Source: Vulcanimicrobium alpinum
GTDB lineage: Bacteria > Vulcanimicrobiota > Vulcanimicrobiia > Vulcanimicrobiales > Vulcanimicrobiaceae
DNA: 64,000 nt
NCBI RefSeq assembly: GCF_027923555.1
Contig: NZ_AP025523.1
Location: forward strand, 310,001 to 374,000
Reading direction: 5' to 3'
Positions 12,950 through 57,582 of this stretch are shown one piece after another (the stretch's first letter is position 1; every line of letters starts with the position of its first letter). The translations under genes and the position numbers were made by a program. The notes under the pieces are model-generated. The model made no database searches and was not told where the DNA came from. It saw nothing but the letters and a program-made list of their open reading frames with translations.

Positions 12950-13321
12950 TTAGACCGGTCCGATGCCCTTCGCGTCCATCGTGCGCAGCCGCTCTGCCAT
13001 CGTACGCATCACTTCGATCGCAAAAAAGGGTGTGTTCTGCACGAGATACGTGAAGCGCCGCGTATTGATCGGCGCGACCTTCGAGGCTTCCTTCGCCGTT
13101 GCGGTCGCGCTGCGTTCGCGTCCGTCGACGATCGCCATTTCTCCGAAGATCCCGCCGGGGGCGACGGTCGCGACGACCGTTCCATCCGGGAGGATGATGT
13201 CGACCGAACCTTCGACGACGACGTACATCGCGTCGCCCTGGTCGCCCGCACTGAACACGACCTCGCCAGCTTTCAACGCACGGAGCGACGGGTCGTTATG
13301 GAACATGTCAAGATTCGCCAT
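12950..13321 (-). CDS. Stand-alone cyclic-nucleotide-binding-domain protein
   Basis: This 123-residue protein is a single Crp-type sensor domain. It shows the beta-roll pattern VVFSAGDQGDAMYVVVEGSVDI and the phosphate-binding cassette FGEMAIVDGRERSATA, in which Glu and Arg contact the cyclic nucleotide in the family. No DNA-binding domain follows. It probably binds cAMP or cGMP and acts through a partner. It overlaps the end of the upstream patatin gene by 14 nt and is the last gene of a minus-strand run. A link to the patatin lipase is suggested by position only. Confidence 0.85.
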   Translation of the reverse strand: MANLDMFHNDPSLRALKAGEVVFSAGDQGDAMYVVVEGSVDIILPDGTVVATVAPGGIFGEMAIVDGRERSATATAKEASKVAPINTRRFTYLVQNTPFFAIEVMRTMAERLRTMDAKGIGPV

Positions 13322-14384
13322 CTCGATCTCCGGACGTGAGTGCCGCTGGTGCTGAAGATGCGCCGAGGCGCCGAGCGGTTTCGACCGCCGCGAGCCCGTC
13401 GGCTGCTCCCAGTTCGAAGACGCGATCGATATCGGCCTGCCTGCCGAACGCGAGCGAGGCGAGCCGGAGGGGGACGGTCGGGCCGATCACCCGCAGATCG
13501 ACGAAGCGTTTTCCCTCCGGGGCGCTCCCGTGATGGACCTGTTCGTTGACGGCGCGCGCGAACTTCAATTCGAGTTCGAGGATGTGTTCGGCGACGATGT
13601 CGTGGACCGTTGCGGCCAGATGCCCGAGCGTCGGGACCCTGCGGTCGCGATACTGCAGACCGCTGTGCTGTAGCAGGATGACGGTGACGTGATCGGCTCC
13701 GGCGTCGATTGCCTGGCGGATCGGGGCGTTGTTCGAAAGTCCGCCGTCGGCGAACTGCGCCGGCGTCCCATCTTCCAGCGTCACGCTCACCGGCGCGAAG
13801 GCGCCGGGCAGAGCGGACGAGGCGCAGAGCGCGTCGAGGACGTTCGCATCGGTCAGCCGGTGCGCGTCGGCTTGCGCGGCGAAGTACGCGCGCTCCCGTT
13901 CGGCCGCGTCGTCCCCGCGAAATAGCGCGAACGATGCATTGCCGCCGCGGGTCAGATCGGTCACTCCGACGATCATGGTCCGCTTGATCGCCGCGACCGA
14001 CGCGTACGGCCGAAGGAGTTCGCGCATCGGCGTCTGGTCGTAGAAGCCGAGCATCGAGCGCAGTTCCTTGAGCCGTCCCAGCGCGGAGAGCGTGCGCAGC
14101 AGACCGCGCACCGGATGACGGCGCACCGCGAGCAGCGACGCCAGCGGCTCGGCCGTTCGCAGCACGTGGGCGCCGGCGATCGAGCGCCAGAGCGTTTTGA
14201 GCAGGTCGGGGCGGTCGAGCGCGACGGGAAGTCCGTTGAGCGCGCCGACCGACGAACCGCAGACGATGTCGAACGACTCGGCGGCGAGCAGTGATTCCAG
14301 CACGCCGGCCGCGTACACGCCGCGCGCAGCGCCGCCGGTCAGGACGAGCGCGCGCCGCAGCGCACGTTCGGATTCAGATCGCAT
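13308..14384 (-). CDS. Patatin-like phospholipase
   Basis: This 358-residue Ser/Asp-dyad acyl hydrolase has the oxyanion-hole loop TGGAARGVYAAG (16-27), the nucleophile elbow GSSVG with Ser45, and the dyad Asp213 in FADGG. There is no signal peptide, so it likely acts on membrane lipids from the cytoplasmic side. The start overlaps the end of the substrate-binding-protein gene by 11 nt, and the gene's own end overlaps the cNMP-domain gene. The four genes from 17441 to 12950 therefore look like one transcript. Substrate specificity cannot be read from the sequence. Confidence 0.9.
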   Translation of the reverse strand: MRSESERALRRALVLTGGAARGVYAAGVLESLLAAESFDIVCGSSVGALNGLPVALDRPDLLKTLWRSIAGAHVLRTAEPLASLLAVRRHPVRGLLRTLSALGRLKELRSMLGFYDQTPMRELLRPYASVAAIKRTMIVGVTDLTRGGNASFALFRGDDAAERERAYFAAQADAHRLTDANVLDALCASSALPGAFAPVSVTLEDGTPAQFADGGLSNNAPIRQAIDAGADHVTVILLQHSGLQYRDRRVPTLGHLAATVHDIVAEHILELELKFARAVNEQVHHGSAPEGKRFVDLRVIGPTVPLRLASLAFGRQADIDRVFELGAADGLAAVETARRLGASSAPAALTSGDRDGES

Positions 14385-39471: not shown

Positions 39472-39565
39472 GGGAGCGTACGGGTCTGGTGGCCCGCCCG
39501 GTCTTCAAAACCGGTGAGGCCGTCGCAAGGCGGCTGGTCGGTTCGATTCCGACACGTTCCCGCCA
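39472..39565 (+). tRNA. selC: Selenocysteine tRNA (anticodon UCA)
   Basis: The 94-nt sequence folds as tRNA-Sec: 8-bp acceptor stem (GGGAGCGT with ACGTTCCC, one G-U pair), 6-bp D stem with a 4-nt loop, anticodon loop CTTCAAA with TCA at 39505-39507, a long variable arm with a GCAA tetraloop, a 5-bp T stem with loop TTCGATT, discriminator G and an encoded CCA. The 8+5 acceptor/T arrangement is the bacterial Sec type. It inserts selenocysteine at recoded UGA codons, so the organism should carry selA, selB and selD elsewhere. No selenoprotein gene was found in this window. Confidence 0.96.
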
Positions 39566-39581: not shown

Positions 39582-40487
39582 TTACTGCGCTAGGAACCAG
39601 CGGATGATGCCGGCGACCTTCAGGTATCCCGGCCCCTGACCCGCACCGCCGCCGCGAAGGAAGTTCGCGGCCAGCTCGAACGTCGCCGAAGCGGAGCGCG
39701 CACCACCCTGCACCGGTGCGCGCTTGCGCGCCTCGGCGTCTGCCTCGTCGGCCATCGCGCGCAATTGTGCGATCGTGCTTTGCGCGTCGGAACCGCTTCG
39801 CTGCAGTGCGCGAACGCGTTCTGCGGCGTCGTTCAACACGGCAGCGGCCTGCCGATAGAGCGCGATCTGGGCGTAGGTGCGCGCCGTTTTTTCGAGCTCG
39901 TCGAGGAGACCGTCGAGTTTGCGCTCGGCGTGCGCGACGTCGTCGGGCGTGCGAAGTGTGCGTCCCGCCTGCGCTTCGACGCGACGGAACGTGTCGCGCT
40001 CGTGCACCATGAGCGCGGCGAAGGAGGGAAACGCCTTCGGATCGTCGGTGCCGAAGATCCACGCTTCGTACTCGCCGTCGCCGTCGACGACACGCGGGTT
40101 CAGCAGATAGATATCCGGCTGCGTACTCTCGCTCAACGCGACGGCGTCGTCGAGAAACGCGAAGTCCGGCGACCACCGCCACCCATCGATCACGTCGCAG
40201 TGATGCGTCGCGAGCCGCTCGATTTCGTCGACCGGCACGATGCGATCGACGAATGTCCCGGTTTGCCGCCAGCCGTTGCTCGTTGCGAGGAAGGCGCGGT
40301 ACGAGGGCGGGAGCGCAAGTCCGAGCCGGGATTCCGCCCTCGCGATCTGCTCGGGCGTTGCCGGTGCGAATCCCATCCATCCCGACTGCGCGACGCCGGC
40401 GGGCAGATCGTAGTACCGCGAATCAGGGCTCGCGAGCAGTTCGCGGCTCCACTCCTCGAGAAACGCGCGCCATTCGGGCCCGGTCAC
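39582..40487 (-). CDS. SMI1/KNR4 (SUKH)-family protein
   Basis: This 301-residue protein has a SUKH-type N-terminal domain (about 38-190): ATPEQIARAESRLGLALPPSYRAFLATSNGW is the characteristic opening, and YLLNPRVVDGDGEYEAW with an aromatic Trp follows. The C-terminal third is helical. Many SUKH proteins are immunity proteins against polymorphic toxins, and others are housekeeping. No toxin gene is recognisable nearby, but the position next to a tRNA gene is typical of acquired cargo. Start ATG 40487; a stop 17 nt after the tRNA ends the gene. Confidence 0.8.
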   Translation of the reverse strand: MTGPEWRAFLEEWSRELLASPDSRYYDLPAGVAQSGWMGFAPATPEQIARAESRLGLALPPSYRAFLATSNGWRQTGTFVDRIVPVDEIERLATHHCDVIDGWRWSPDFAFLDDAVALSESTQPDIYLLNPRVVDGDGEYEAWIFGTDDPKAFPSFAALMVHERDTFRRVEAQAGRTLRTPDDVAHAERKLDGLLDELEKTARTYAQIALYRQAAAVLNDAAERVRALQRSGSDAQSTIAQLRAMADEADAEARKRAPVQGGARSASATFELAANFLRGGGAGQGPGYLKVAGIIRWFLAQ

Positions 40488-40511: not shown

Positions 40512-41384
40512 TTATGCCTGTTCGCGCACGGGGAAGCGCTGCGTCTCGAGCTTCAGGCGCTGCAGCATCGCCGGCGTCGGAAGCTTGATGTCGCGCGCGA
40601 GCTTCAGCCACGCGAGGACTTTAATCGTCCACCACGTCGCGTCGAATTCGAACCAGCGCAGGCCGTGGCGTGCCGAGAATGGGAACGCGTGGTGGTTGTT
40701 GTGCCAGCCCTCGCCCCAGGCGAGGATCGCGACCCACCAGTTGTTGGTCGACTTGTCGCCGGTGCGGAACGACTGGTAGCCGCTGTGGTGCGCGGCGCTG
40801 TTGACCAGCCACGTGATATGATACGTGAGCACGATGCGGACGAAAACGCCCCACACCAGCCACGAGACGCCGCCGAGTGCAAGCAGCGCGACCCCGAGCA
40901 CGATCGTCCACAGCAGGTACGTCTTCTCGAGGAACTGATAGAAGCGATCGCCGGCGAGGTCGGGCGCGAGCCGGGCCTGTTCAGCCGGCGAGAGCCGCGC
41001 TTCGTTGGGGCGGTAGAGCCACTCAAAATGGCTCCACAACAGCCCGCGATTGATGTCGTGCGGATCGCCTTCTTTGTCCGTGTGCGCGTGATGCGCGCGA
41101 TGCGTCGAGATCCATTCGATTGGGCCGCCTTGAAGCGCCAGCGTGCCGAGGATCGCCGCCAGATATTCGACCGGCTTGACGACCTTCAGGCTGCGATGCG
41201 TGAGGAGCCGGTGGTAGCCGAGCGTGATCCCCCAAGCGCCGGTCACGTAGTAGAGCGCGACCATGACGACGAGCGCGCTCCAGTGGAAGGTGCCTGGGAT
41301 GAACGCGCAGAGCGCGCCAAGGTGGACGACGGCGAGGCCGGTAAACGTCACCCAGCCGGGAATATGGGGCTTCGCGGATTGCAT
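40512..41384 (-). CDS. Acyl-CoA/acyl-lipid delta-9-type desaturase
   Basis: This 290-residue integral membrane di-iron enzyme introduces a double bond into fatty-acyl chains. The three His boxes are intact: HRLLTH (58-63), HRAHH (95-99) and HNNHH (228-232), with hydrophobic helices between. ATG 41384 is preferred (MQSAKPHIPGW). The frame opens earlier at 41426 without a ribosome-binding site. It stands alone on the minus strand between the SUKH and OsmC genes. Expression in response to cold is typical of the family, but no control signal is seen here. Confidence 0.95.
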   Translation of the reverse strand: MQSAKPHIPGWVTFTGLAVVHLGALCAFIPGTFHWSALVVMVALYYVTGAWGITLGYHRLLTHRSLKVVKPVEYLAAILGTLALQGGPIEWISTHRAHHAHTDKEGDPHDINRGLLWSHFEWLYRPNEARLSPAEQARLAPDLAGDRFYQFLEKTYLLWTIVLGVALLALGGVSWLVWGVFVRIVLTYHITWLVNSAAHHSGYQSFRTGDKSTNNWWVAILAWGEGWHNNHHAFPFSARHGLRWFEFDATWWTIKVLAWLKLARDIKLPTPAMLQRLKLETQRFPVREQA

Positions 41385-41444
41385 TGCTTCCGAAAGGTGC
41401 GCCCTCCGTCGCCTGAATCCTGGCAAGGAGAGCGCACCGGTCGC

Positions 41445-41891
41445 TTACGGAACGAGCGCGGCGTCGAGCGTGATCGACTTCACTGCGCCCAGCGCCTTGG
41501 AGATCGGGCAGCCGGCCTTCGCACCGTTCGCGAGTTCGGCAAATTGTGCCGCGTCCAAGCCCTCGGCGCTCACCTTCGTCGTCAAGTGGATGCGGTCGAT
41601 CTCGAAGCCGTCCGGCAATCTGTGAAGGTTGACGTTCGCGATGGTGTCGATCGACTTCGGCGGATGGCCTGCGCGGGTGAGTGCGAGGCTTAGCGCCATC
41701 GAGAAGCAGGCGGCGTGCGAGGCGGCGAGCAGTTCTTCGGGATTCGTGCCGGGGTCGCCGGAGAAGCGCGTTCCGAACGAGTACTCGGCGTTGACCTTCC
41801 CGCTCCCGGCGGCGATCGTGCCGCGACCCTTGGCGATGTCGCCCGTCCAGTGGACGGACGCGGTGCGTGCGATATCGTCAGGCGTGTTCAT
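41445..41891 (-). CDS. OsmC/Ohr-family peroxiredoxin
   Basis: This 148-residue thiol peroxidase reduces organic hydroperoxides in the cytoplasm. The two catalytic Cys are present: Cys62 in ASHAACFSMAL and Cys128 in AKAGCPISKAL, with the supporting NPEELLAASH block. The length and fold match OsmC. ATG 41891 is the start; the frame extends further upstream through the divergent amidohydrolase region only as an artefact. It is divergent from the amidohydrolase gene with about 54 nt between them. Confidence 0.94.
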   Translation of the reverse strand: MNTPDDIARTASVHWTGDIAKGRGTIAAGSGKVNAEYSFGTRFSGDPGTNPEELLAASHAACFSMALSLALTRAGHPPKSIDTIANVNLHRLPDGFEIDRIHLTTKVSAEGLDAAQFAELANGAKAGCPISKALGAVKSITLDAALVP

Positions 41892-41945
41892 GCCTCTCAG
41901 AAAAATCCACAACCGCGCGACGGTTGCGGGGGGTTGTTCGGCTCG

Positions 41946-42770
41946 ATGATCGACGTGCACACGCACCTCCACCCGCCCCGCCTGTTCGCGGCGATCAGGC
42001 GCTGGTTCGCGGAGCGCAGCCCGTGGGAGATCCAGCATCATCCGACCGAGCCGCGCGCGGTCGCGCAGGCGATGCGCGACGCCGGCGTCGAGACGTTCGT
42101 CTTCTGCTCGTACGCGCACAAGCCGGGGATCTCGCGCGAACTGAACGCGTGGCTTGCGCAGACCGCGCGCGATCTCGGCGCGGGGGCGTTCGCGCTCGCG
42201 ACCGTCCACCTCGACGATCCTGATCCGGCGGGCGACATGCGCGAGGCGCTGCGCGACGGATGCATCGGGCTCAAGGTGCACGAGAACGTCCAGCGCCTGC
42301 ACCTCGACGATCCGCGCTTCGCGCCGGTGCTCGATGCGGTCGCCGCGGCCGAGGGGTTCGTCCTCGTGCACGTCGGCGCGATCCCGTGGTCCGACGACAC
42401 GCACGATGGCCCGGCCCGCATCGCGCGCGTGCTCGCGGCGCACCCGCGCCTGCGGATCGTGGTCGCGCATTTCGGCGTCCCCGATTCGCTGCGCTATATC
42501 GAGATGGCTGCGCAGGAGCCGCGGCTCTTTCTCGACACGACGATGGTATTCGCGCGCGAGTCGCCGATGCACGTGTTCTTTCCGCACGACACGATCGAAC
42601 GCGCCGCCGGCCAGATCGTCTACGGCACCGACTGGCCCAACATCCCGCACGCGTACGACAGCGAACTGCGCGCGCTGGAGGCGATGGAACTCTCGCCGGG
42701 CGCCCTCGACGCGATCACGCGCGAGAACGCGCGGCGCTTGGCGCCGGCGCTCGCGCGCTCGGCGCCTTGA
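41946..42770 (+). CDS. Amidohydrolase 2-family metal-dependent hydrolase
   Basis: This 274-residue TIM-barrel hydrolase has an N-terminal metal-binding HTH motif (MIDVHTHLHPPR, His5 and His7), KVHENVQ with a His near the middle, VAHFGVPDS and the YGTDWPNIPH segment carrying the terminal Asp. Relatives hydrolyse or decarboxylate small aromatic or carboxylic compounds. ATG 41946 follows a TCG-rich stretch; the frame opens earlier at 41715 within the OsmC gene. Its 3' end overlaps the convergent DUF3810 gene by 56 nt. The substrate is unknown. Confidence 0.9.
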   Translation: MIDVHTHLHPPRLFAAIRRWFAERSPWEIQHHPTEPRAVAQAMRDAGVETFVFCSYAHKPGISRELNAWLAQTARDLGAGAFALATVHLDDPDPAGDMREALRDGCIGLKVHENVQRLHLDDPRFAPVLDAVAAAEGFVLVHVGAIPWSDDTHDGPARIARVLAAHPRLRIVVAHFGVPDSLRYIEMAAQEPRLFLDTTMVFARESPMHVFFPHDTIERAAGQIVYGTDWPNIPHAYDSELRALEAMELSPGALDAITRENARRLAPALARSAP

Positions 42771-43803
42771 CGCGCGGCAAACCGTCCGCGTCGAGCTGCG
42801 TCCCCACCAGCAGCCGCAGGAAATACCCATACGACGCGACGCCGCCGCGGACGCCGTTGCTGCGCAGGTAGCGGTCGTAGAGGTGCCACTGGATCGCGAA
42901 CACTTGCGGCAGATAGTGGCGCAGAAACCGCGCGCGGCCGGCATCGAAGTCGGCGACCACGCGCGGATCGAGCCGATGTTTGCGGCGTTCGCTCTCGGGG
43001 AGTTCGCCGTACGTCCAATACGCACCGGAATACCGGATCAGTGGATCGCTCGAACGCAGGCACGCCAGCGTGCCGACGTAGTTCGCGTCTCCCTCGTCGG
43101 TGAAGCCGCCGACATGCGCCCACTCGTGTGCGAGCGCGCGCGGCACCTCGAACGGCAGAAATGAAGCGTTGAGCAGCGTCTCGAACGCGAACGGCGAGTA
43201 CTGCCCGCCGATCCCTGCCGCCTCGTAATAGGGTTCGAGGATCGTGGGCTTCGGCCGCGTCACGCGCACCTCCCACCGGTCGCCGAGCCGCGCGATCAGC
43301 GGCGCGTAGGCTGCGCGCAGCTTTGCAAGGTCGAGCGTCTCCGCGTGCGCGGCCACGACGTCGCGATTGAGGATGGCGACGATGCGCGCGCTGAACTCCG
43401 CGACGCGCGCGTCGGTGACGGCCTGCGGCGCGAGCTCGATGCGCTGCGCGATCGTCGCCCGGCGATAGTTCCAGCCCCACAGCACCTCGAAGAGCACGAC
43501 GCCGACGGCGACCCAGGCGATCGTGTGCGCGGTCAGCGCGCCGGCAGTTCGCAGGCGCCGTCCGCGCGGCGCACCGCGCAGCGCGCGCACCCACCACGCC
43601 GCGAGCGCAGCGAGCACCGCGAGCGCCTCGAGGTCGCCGAGCGGAAACGGCACCGCGTCGGTCAGCGGGACGAACGCGGCGTTCATCGCCGCGAACAGCC
43701 CGTTCGCATATCCGTGCTCGATCCAGCCGGCCGGGAGCGGCGCCGCCGCGGCGACGATCGCAAGCGCGACCGCGATCCCGTCGAGCAGCAGCGCGCGGAT
43801 CAC
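42715..43803 (-). CDS. DUF3810-type membrane zinc metalloprotease
   Basis: This 362-residue protein has TM helices at about 8-25, 58-75 and 92-110, then a soluble domain with a zinc-protease HEWAH (226-230) and Glu237 in FTDEGDANY that together resemble the HEXXH plus distant Glu pattern. This is the layout of DUF3810 proteins, which are thought to be membrane-bound peptidases. GTG 43803 overlaps the GNAT stop by four bases. The Arg/Pro-rich C-terminal tail is on the cytoplasmic side or disordered. The frame extends to 44325 without coding sense. Confidence 0.85.
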   Translation of the reverse strand: MIRALLLDGIAVALAIVAAAAPLPAGWIEHGYANGLFAAMNAAFVPLTDAVPFPLGDLEALAVLAALAAWWVRALRGAPRGRRLRTAGALTAHTIAWVAVGVVLFEVLWGWNYRRATIAQRIELAPQAVTDARVAEFSARIVAILNRDVVAAHAETLDLAKLRAAYAPLIARLGDRWEVRVTRPKPTILEPYYEAAGIGGQYSPFAFETLLNASFLPFEVPRALAHEWAHVGGFTDEGDANYVGTLACLRSSDPLIRYSGAYWTYGELPESERRKHRLDPRVVADFDAGRARFLRHYLPQVFAIQWHLYDRYLRSNGVRGGVASYGYFLRLLVGTQLDADGLPRVKAPSARAPAPSAARSRA

Positions 43804-46053: not shown

Positions 46054-46377
46054 ATGAAGCAGCGTCGTCGTCCGCGCGATTCCACGTTTCTTGTCTCGGC
46101 GGCCCTCGCCGGAGCGGGCGGCGTGCTTGCGATCGCGTTCACCGTCGCGATGCCGTTCTGGACGGCCGCGCACCACCGGCCGTGGTCGAGCGCGTTCGCC
46201 GAGATCGCCGCGTGGGGCTGCGTCGCGCTCGCGGGTTGTTACGCGTCGATCCGGACCTATCTCGACAGCGGCGATCCGCCGGAGCGTCCGCCGCGGGGCG
46301 GCTTGCCGGCGCTGCGCCTCCTCGAGGGCGGCGCGCCGCACGTCGAAGCGCCGCGTTCCGAGCGCGACGCGGCGTAG
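46054..46377 (+). CDS. Small two-TM membrane protein
   Basis: This 107-residue protein has two hydrophobic helices (about 12-35 and 46-67) and a Pro/Arg-rich C-terminal cytoplasmic tail. It begins ATG 46054, divergent from the sigma factor, and ends directly against the sirtuin GTG with no gap, so the two are co-translated. No family is recognised. Confidence 0.55.
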   Translation: MKQRRRPRDSTFLVSAALAGAGGVLAIAFTVAMPFWTAAHHRPWSSAFAEIAAWGCVALAGCYASIRTYLDSGDPPERPPRGGLPALRLLEGGAPHVEAPRSERDAA

Positions 46378-55641: not shown

Positions 55642-57582
55642 GTGCCAACCTTCCTGGTCGCGCTGGCCCTCGCGGCGCTCGTGCCGCAGCCGAACTCCGT
55701 CGACGCGACCGCATGCGCGGCACCCTACGTGCTCGACCGCCCCCTGCGGTTCGCGGCCGGCACCGATCGCGGCGGCTTCGAACTGCTGCGCGAACGCTGG
55801 AGCGCGCTCGGGATCCCGGCACCGGTCCTCGCGCCGCCGCCCGCGATCGCCGACGTGCGGCGCCTGCGGACGTCCGCCGGCGGCGACGGTTACGATCTCA
55901 CGGTGACGCGTCGTGACGTCGCGATCGGGATCCGGAGCGGCAGCGCGTCGGAGTTCGATGCGCTCGCGACGCTCGCGCAGTTGCCGCAGCGCACGAACGG
56001 GCAGTGGACGCTGCCGTGCGTGCGCATCGCCGACGCGCCCGCGTTGCGCTGGCGCGTCCTCTCCGACGACGTCTCGCGCGGTCCGTTCCCGACGATGGCC
56101 TATGCGAAGCAGCGCATTCGTACGCTCGCGTCCTTGAAGATGAACGGCTGGTCGCCGTACATGGAGCACGTCGTCGTCGATCCGCGCGCGCCCTACGTGG
56201 CGTGGCCCAACGGGTACACGCTGGCGCAGCTGGGCGAGCTCGCCGGCTACGCGCGACGGTATCACGTCACGCTGATCCCCGAGCAGCAGACGTTCGCGCA
56301 CATGCACGAAACGCTCAAATGGGAGACGTACGCGCCGCTGGCGGAACTGCCGCACGGGTATCTCCTCGCCGAAAGCGATCCGCGCACGTACACCTATCTC
56401 GCGCCGCTTGTGCGCGGCGTCGCCGGCGCCGCGATGCCGGTGCCGTTCGTGCATCTCGGCGCCGACGAACCGCTCGATCTCGGGCGCGGGCGCACGCCGC
56501 GCACGCCGCAGGTCTTCGCCGACCACGTGAACCGGGTCGCTGCGATGCTGCCGGCGGGCGTGCGTCCGATGATCTGGGACGACGCGATCCAGAAAGACCC
56601 CTCGATCCTCGGTCTGATTCCGCGCTCGACGGTGGTGGTCACGTTTCACTACGGCGCGGAGCGCTCGTTTCGCGGCTACGTCGATCCGATCGCGAACGCC
56701 GGCTTCGACCAGATGATCGCACCCGGCGCCGCGAACTGGAACGAGATCTATCCCGATCTCGAAACCGCGTACGCCAACGTCGCGCGCTTCGGCGCCGACG
56801 CGAAGGGCGCGCGCGGGATGCTGGGAATGTTCATGACGGTGTGGCACGACGACGGCGAGTCGCTATACGAGGCGACGTGGCCCGCCGTCGCATACGCCGC
56901 GGCGACGGCGTGGCAGACGCGGCCGGTCGATGATGCTGCGTGGCATCGTACGTTTGCGCGCGCGTTTTTCGGCTCCGACGACCCGGCGTACGCCGCCGAT
57001 CTCGACGGTCTGCAAGCGATCCGCTTGCTGCTGCGCGCCGACGAGGGCGACGCGCCCGATTATCTCTTTTGGCGCGACCCGTTCGACCCGCGGGTGCAGG
57101 CCCGCGCCGCACGGCTCGATCTCGCCGCGATCCGCACGCGCGCCGAGGCGGTACTCGCGCACGTGTGGACCGCGCGCCCACCCCTTCATGCCGACGCGGT
57201 CGCGCCGATGACGGTCGGCGCGCTGCGGTACGATCATCTCGCGCGCCGTCTGCAGATCGGGAAGGAGGCCCGCGACTACTACGACGACGCGCGCGCGCAC
57301 GCCACCAAACGCAACGTAGGCTCCGTCTATCGCAGCCTCAACGTCGCGAAGTATCTGTGCTGGGAGATGCGCGACGCGCTCGCGGCGATCGAACCGCTGT
57401 ACGTGCGCGCCTGGCGAGCCGAGAGCACCGACGGCGGCTTGCCGCGGATCCTCGTGCACTACCATGCCGCGGCGGCGGACGCGCAGCGCTGTGCCGACCG
57501 GCTCGACACTGCCGCCCGCGAAGATTATGACGGAGCCGGGACGCTACCGCCCTGGGAGACCGTCATCCCAAGCGCAAAGTGA
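55642..57582 (+). CDS. Glycoside hydrolase family 20 beta-N-acetylhexosaminidase
   Basis: This 646-residue protein has a signal peptide at the N-terminus and a TIM-barrel GH20 domain with LKMNGWSPYMEH, IPEQQTFAHMHETL and the catalytic pair Asp275-Glu276 in FVHLGADEP. The substrate-assisted mechanism of the family needs these. It removes terminal GlcNAc or GalNAc from chitin, glycans or peptidoglycan fragments outside the cytoplasm. The long C-terminal helical region (about 430-646) is typical of the larger GH20 members. Start GTG 55642 lies 20 nt from the divergent hydrolase start. Together they suggest cell-wall turnover or scavenging. Confidence 0.88.
   Translation: MPTFLVALALAALVPQPNSVDATACAAPYVLDRPLRFAAGTDRGGFELLRERWSALGIPAPVLAPPPAIADVRRLRTSAGGDGYDLTVTRRDVAIGIRSGSASEFDALATLAQLPQRTNGQWTLPCVRIADAPALRWRVLSDDVSRGPFPTMAYAKQRIRTLASLKMNGWSPYMEHVVVDPRAPYVAWPNGYTLAQLGELAGYARRYHVTLIPEQQTFAHMHETLKWETYAPLAELPHGYLLAESDPRTYTYLAPLVRGVAGAAMPVPFVHLGADEPLDLGRGRTPRTPQVFADHVNRVAAMLPAGVRPMIWDDAIQKDPSILGLIPRSTVVVTFHYGAERSFRGYVDPIANAGFDQMIAPGAANWNEIYPDLETAYANVARFGADAKGARGMLGMFMTVWHDDGESLYEATWPAVAYAAATAWQTRPVDDAAWHRTFARAFFGSDDPAYAADLDGLQAIRLLLRADEGDAPDYLFWRDPFDPRVQARAARLDLAAIRTRAEAVLAHVWTARPPLHADAVAPMTVGALRYDHLARRLQIGKEARDYYDDARAHATKRNVGSVYRSLNVAKYLCWEMRDALAAIEPLYVRAWRAESTDGGLPRILVHYHAAAADAQRCADRLDTAAREDYDGAGTLPPWETVIPSAK

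Follow-up and report, generated by a model that had tools for sequence, protein, structure and literature searches.

The selenocysteine tRNA gene selC described here is, with very little room for doubt, part of a working Sec decoding system of the standard bacterial type in Vulcanimicrobium alpinum WC8-2 (phylum Vulcanimicrobiota / Eremiobacterota). The gene lies in the window, a stretch of 64,000 nucleotides with a G+C content of 68.7% (NZ_AP025523.1, positions 310,001 to 374,000), which was analysed together with the rest of the genome. An earlier reading made from the sequence alone had held that the organism should use Sec. This expectation is supported by the presence of selA, selB and selD, by the conserved pairing of selC in relatives, and by a formate dehydrogenase gene outside the window, fdhA, with an in-frame UGA and a SECIS-like hairpin. 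Following the known pathway, SerRS would charge tRNA-Sec with serine, SelA would turn the seryl-tRNA into Sec-tRNA using selenophosphate made by SelD, and SelB would bring the Sec-tRNA to UGA codons that have a SECIS hairpin downstream. The predicted target is fdhA, encoded with FdhB-like iron-sulfur and NrfD-like membrane proteins and carrying UGA at the active-site position.

The selC gene is complete, and its coordinates, strand and anticodon agree exactly with the sequence-only reading, which had described a full 8+5-type gene with a UCA anticodon (ARAGORN, RF01852 and fold; Table 1). The cmscan match to RF01852 spans positions 39472-39561 and the entire model (1-91 of 91) with an E value of 4.1e-14, the gathering score being 47 bits. 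The minimum free energy fold (-50.1 kcal/mol, z = -3.09) was equalled by 1 of 200 shuffled sequences and combines an acceptor stem of 8 bp and a T stem of 5 bp with the D stem and variable arm listed in Table 1. Since the second-best RF01852 score in the genome was 46.3 bits, slightly under the cut-off, a single selC was found.

Table 1. Features of the Sec decoding system of V. alpinum and of the selC surroundings. Positions are those of the window unless marked as genome positions.
Feature	Position	Strand	Evidence or remark
selC, tRNA-Sec(UCA), entire gene including encoded CCA	39472..39565	+	ARAGORN; Rfam RF01852, 77.1 bits
Acceptor stem, 5' half, 8 bp (partner 39554-39561)	39472..39479	+	fold
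D arm, stem 6 bp	39481..39496	+	fold; two-sided changes in 3/6 pairs
Anticodon arm	39498..39514	+	fold; two-sided changes in 3/5 pairs
Anticodon TCA (UCA, reads UGA)	39505..39507	+	ARAGORN, gene position 34
Long variable arm, stem 7 bp	39518..39535	+	fold; two-sided changes in 4/7 pairs
T arm, stem 5 bp	39537..39553	+	fold; two-sided changes in 1/5 pairs
G adjoining acceptor stem, and encoded CCA	39562..39565	+	sequence
Fatty-acid desaturase gene, downstream of selC	40512..41426	-	PF00487; no role in Sec use claimed
selA, called frame	genome 293540-294835		TIGR00474, 488.2 bits in genome search, 478.8 in called frame, cut-off 267.9
selB, adjoins selA	genome 294841-296691		TIGR00475, 318.3 bits, cut-off 242.25
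selD, Cys form	genome 3111960-3112886		TIGR00476, 377.5 bits, cut-off 125
fdhA, outside the window	genome 137897-141235		in-frame TGA at 138473-138475

A UCA anticodon could also belong to a suppressor or serine-isoacceptor-like tRNA acting as a general reader of UGA. We find this scarcely credible, given the 8+5 fold, the D stem of 6 bp and the full RF01852 match. Moreover, UGA was the commonest stop in the stretches read, ending 66 of 102 well-scored called genes, and general suppression would presumably be costly. For the same reason, a hairpin must mark the exception wherever UGA is to be decoded as Sec.

In the RF01852 search, selC reached at least 63.5 bits in 33 of 41 genomes, own genome included; the automatic tally of 35 genomes over the cut-off takes in two whose best match, at about 47 bits, is probably another tRNA. 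Loci were extracted for 30 of the 33 genomes, and ARAGORN called SeC in each of them. The alignment comprised 25 of these loci, five of other length being left out, and contained 21 distinct rows. Paired cells made up 94.9% of the structure compared to 85.5% in shuffles (0/500 reached the observed value), and this percentage is probably low because of a one-column shift at the 5' end in six rows. Two-sided changes occurred in 12 of 31 pairs (reached by 1/500 shuffles) and covariation was 0.344 versus 0.189 (0/500). The number of further pair types, 29 against 25.8 in shuffles (27/500), was the weaker one of the five measures, and slid controls were 41-54% paired. Judging from this alignment, selC pairing is maintained in relatives through compensatory changes.

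The sequence-only reading had named an absence of selA, selB and selD as the sign of a relic tRNA. All three genes are present as open frames and score over the curated cut-offs. The selA-selB pair is located upstream of selC at a distance of 53-56 kb, with its end 13 kb short of the window, which qualifies the description of the selC surroundings as an otherwise unremarkable region. As the TIGR00474 match begins at 293483, ahead of the called frame, the true selA start is further upstream. SelB carries both the GTPase domain (PF00009) and the SelB winged-helix domain (PF09107). The best solved relative of SelD is 3u0o, a selenide, water dikinase; a long open frame had raised the idea of an additional N-terminal domain fused to SelD, but this was not supported, the 732-aa frame showing AIRS domains only. 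Among 60 genomes (own included), scores over the cut-off were obtained for selA in 51, selB in 47 and selD in 53. The six SelA proteins closest to that of V. alpinum (68-77% identity) come from Candidatus Eremiobacterota / WPS-2 genomes.

Of 32 genomes with both selA and selC, 19 have them on one contig, at a distance of 6-66 kb. The desaturase gene adjoins selC in 5 of 29 relatives' loci as well (64-86% identical); these loci span just 1.5 kb per side, and the remaining 24 say little on the linkage. On the basis of the distances and the shared desaturase neighbour, the surroundings of selC form a putative sel region of loose linkage that has persisted throughout the class. Directly downstream of selC lies a gene for an SMI1/KNR4 (SUKH-1) family protein (window 39582-40487, minus strand), and the desaturase gene is adjoined by a 526-aa frame with a terminal OsmC domain (41445-43025, minus strand; TIGR03562, 163.7 bits). 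Two similar transposase frames of the Mutator family (PF00872) are located just ahead of the window (genome 306340-309321; L100:11340-12539 and 13104-14321), the first assigned by domain test and the second by its similar N-terminus. Two further ARAGORN calls in the window, tRNA-Ser(cga) at 46289-46375 (plus strand) and tRNA-Ala(tgc) at 55763-55849 (minus strand), are probably false, with no Rfam tRNA at either up to E 10.

No selenoprotein had been evident in the window from its sequence, and this holds as far as can be told from a scan for in-frame TGA codons with coding signal before and after them. None of its best 14 candidates was a convincing selenoprotein; they were adjoining genes sharing one frame, or frames opposite called genes.

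Outside the window, a PF00384 search of the genome yielded three molybdopterin enzymes, of which one, fdhA, has an internal TGA. Read through this codon, fdhA scores 1476.1 bits with NF041513 (cut-off 1400) and 1053 with TIGR01553 (cut-off 814.2), and its frame stays open for about 920 codons past the UGA. Downstream, the cluster encodes an FDH-beta-like iron-sulfur protein (170.4 bits, under the family cut-off of 334.7) and a membrane protein resembling NrfD (PF03916, 86.5 bits, cut-off 25.8). The predicted risk that UGA-containing genes are annotated as truncated was reproduced on fdhA with the simple gene caller of this analysis, which takes TGA as a stop and splits the gene into frames of 192 aa (137897-138475) and 915 aa (138488-141235).

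In alignments with solved structures, the fdhA TGA falls on a residue, given as X and taken here to be Sec, of the formate dehydrogenase chain 1h0h_A (PDB), and on one given as C in 9qm0_A, which is named 'selenocysteine-containing'. In 18 of 18 loci, 139, 140 or 144 residues separate it from the preceding iron-sulfur motif, which amounts to the same position. The loci of the 17 relatives were selected for a flagged TGA, so the independent evidence lies in the position of the TGA and in the hairpin, not in the TGA itself. A TGA-bearing PF00384 match was present in 19 of 21 genomes, a count in which the L171 match is off the active-site position and G006:C127 and G040:C537 lie outside the loci read. 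In another family of the class, three loci (L109 in G044, L110 in G041 and L111 in G042) encode a second type of FDH-like molybdopterin enzyme, whose motif CNRTUHAPSV includes an in-frame TGA; a hairpin-like stretch, GCCGGUCUGGC, comes after it.

A search for SECIS-like hairpins after in-frame UGA codons, as suggested from the window sequence, found one in fdhA, 11 nt past the TGA. It has seven pairs and a GGUCU loop, which presumably resembles the SECIS loop of E. coli fdhF. All seven pairs are kept in 18 of 18 fdhA loci, a count that leaves out L171, L172 (no row) and L173 (terminal TGA only); the loop is GGUCU in 12 and AGUUU in 6. Across 15 distinct sequences, 100% of cells were paired compared to 86.4% in shuffles (0/500), while slid controls were 30-51% paired. 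Covariation was 0.468 versus 0.215 (0/500) and rests largely on the two fdhA groups with GGUCU and AGUUU loops. Two-sided changes (three pairs, reached by 60/500 shuffles) and further pair types (6, reached by 68/500) were not striking.

These data also bear on the idea that the fdhA TGA is a sequencing error or plain nonsense mutation and that the sel genes serve another purpose. Such a case does seem to exist among the relatives: in G006:C211 (L103/L171), another molybdopterin oxidoreductase, the TGA stands four codons ahead of a retained active-site Cys, and we did not count it as a Sec codon, since it looks more like an assembly error or nonsense change. For fdhA, the chance of this is minute. 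Its TGA keeps a constant position past the iron-sulfur motif in all loci compared, matches the active-site residue in alignments with solved enzymes and has a covarying hairpin downstream. Nor was an alternative user of selenophosphate found: mnmH/selU (2-selenouridine, TIGR03167) had no match in the own genome and was over the cut-off in 0 of 21 genomes, with one weak match in G038. The internal UGA of fdhA is thus almost certainly read as Sec, and we infer from the gene that the FdhA protein is made and contains selenium.

V. alpinum has Cys at the active position of SelD, and Sec occupies it in 24 of 31 compared SelD rows. In the SelD tree, V. alpinum (G000), G010 and the second copy of the congener G002 form a Cys clade (support 100/99) that adjoins four Sec-bearing congeners (their group 84/54). 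This arrangement suggests a Sec-to-Cys change of SelD within the genus, the direction following from the midpoint root. Congener G002 has two SelD, one with Sec (divergent, branch 0.81) and one with Cys, as well as an fdhA with UGA (G002:C28:308490-309416, L069; G002:C35:142366-143292, L261; G002:C21, L160). In its assembly of 83% completeness, selA was absent, selB did not reach the cut-off and no RF01852 match exceeded 47.7 bits. Since relatives have selA, selB and selC linked, the assembly probably lacks the region in question. Three genomes of the same family that are 95-96% complete (G021, G027 and G031) likewise showed no selA or selB over the cut-off, with SelD-like matches below the cut-off only, and have probably lost the Sec trait; G021, the sole one of the three in the selC search, had a best score of 43.4 bits.

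Among the matches listed, at least 5 of 8 congeners had a TGA-bearing peroxiredoxin, as did 4 of 4 genomes from another family within the order. In the AhpC/TSA peroxiredoxins of congeners and G037 (L263-L268), the UGA stands at the expected peroxidatic Cys (AFTGVU, AFTGTU, AFSGTU, AFTPVU); the part of L263 that was scanned matched no NCBIfam family over the cut-off. The own genome has 15 AhpC-TSA (PF00578) matches, with no internal stop among the 11 listed, and in the ten stretches holding these 11, the own protein nearest to the TGA-peroxiredoxin is 32-39% identical. TGA-bearing CMD-domain proteins were found in G006, G007, G037 and G038, among 13 genomes. The portions read of three of them are similar to (seleno)protein families related to AhpD and YciW, with all family matches under the cut-offs save one generic AhpD-domain match. 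In the own genome, no internal stop was present in 4 CMD (PF02627) matches and no internal TGA in 7 thioredoxin (PF00085) matches or 1 DSBA (PF01323) match, and Rdx/SelW (PF10262) gave 0 matches. That fdhA is the one selenoprotein gene is a hypothesis, since GPx, MsrA, HesB, rhodanese, genome-wide OsmC and other families lie outside these searches.

The Cys form of SelD, together with the lack of the TGA-peroxiredoxin and TGA-CMD proteins of some congeners (for peroxiredoxin, among the 11 listed of 15 matches), is what might be seen if the Sec trait had decayed and selC were a leftover. We judge such a relic very improbable: selA, selB and selD are open and over their cut-offs, fdhA remains open far beyond its UGA, and relatives preserve the pairing of selC. 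In Yersinia, strains are on record that have a broken selB yet keep selA, selC and selD, so a recent point loss is excludable by experiment alone. With the decoding system taken as working, the Cys-form SelD points to narrower Sec use, not loss, and the use of Sec in V. alpinum may be more limited than in its congeners. A more specific proposal, to which we give an even chance, is that V. alpinum is late in losing selenoproteins, having exchanged Sec for Cys in SelD and lacking the TGA-peroxiredoxin and TGA-CMD proteins while keeping the full Sec machinery for formate dehydrogenase alone. If true, the genus would span a natural series that starts with several selenoproteins and ends with a single one in V. 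alpinum, a cultivable member of a phylum that has hardly been studied. For research on shrinking selenoproteomes, the genus provides a small natural series in its mixture of Cys-type and Sec-type SelD and in the patchy occurrence of the TGA-peroxiredoxin.

The species description (PMC9758169) reports one circular chromosome of 3,508,363 bp with 68.4% G+C (AP025523) and introduces V. alpinum as the first representative of its phylum in culture; its main text contains no word starting with 'selen' or 'formate'. In the open-access literature searched, no relevant paper was found on Sec or selenoproteins in Eremiobacterota, WPS-2 or Vulcanimicrobiota, the one that mentions both selenocysteine and WPS-2 being about tea, and selenium or formate dehydrogenase combined with Eremiobacterota returned only titles and abstracts on other subjects. 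The Sec system of V. alpinum thus seems to have gone unremarked so far. Establishing Sec decoding, by its genes, for the first cultivated species of the phylum is a useful annotation and no surprise; wherever UGA is always annotated as a stop, fdhA will be split or missed. As the organism decodes Sec by its genes, formate oxidation is likely among its capacities.

In every feature tested, the Sec system is of a known kind. Like the bacterial system of Romero et al. 2005 (PMC1273633), it comprises selA, selB, selC and selD, with selA and selB adjacent and a hairpin directly past the UGA in the coding region. No difference in kind from that account was found, V. alpinum being without an mnmH match. 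The SelD protein is full-length like known selenophosphate synthetases and, unlike most of those compared, has Cys in place of Sec at the active position. The fdhA product corresponds to the Sec formate dehydrogenase alpha subunit (NF041513 / FdnG type; PDB 1h0h, 9qm0, 1kqf) in its active-site UGA, its molybdopterin domains and its FdhB-like and NrfD-like neighbours; fdhA itself shows nothing of note against these enzymes, and the difference lies in the FdhB-like protein, which scores below the FDH-beta cut-off.
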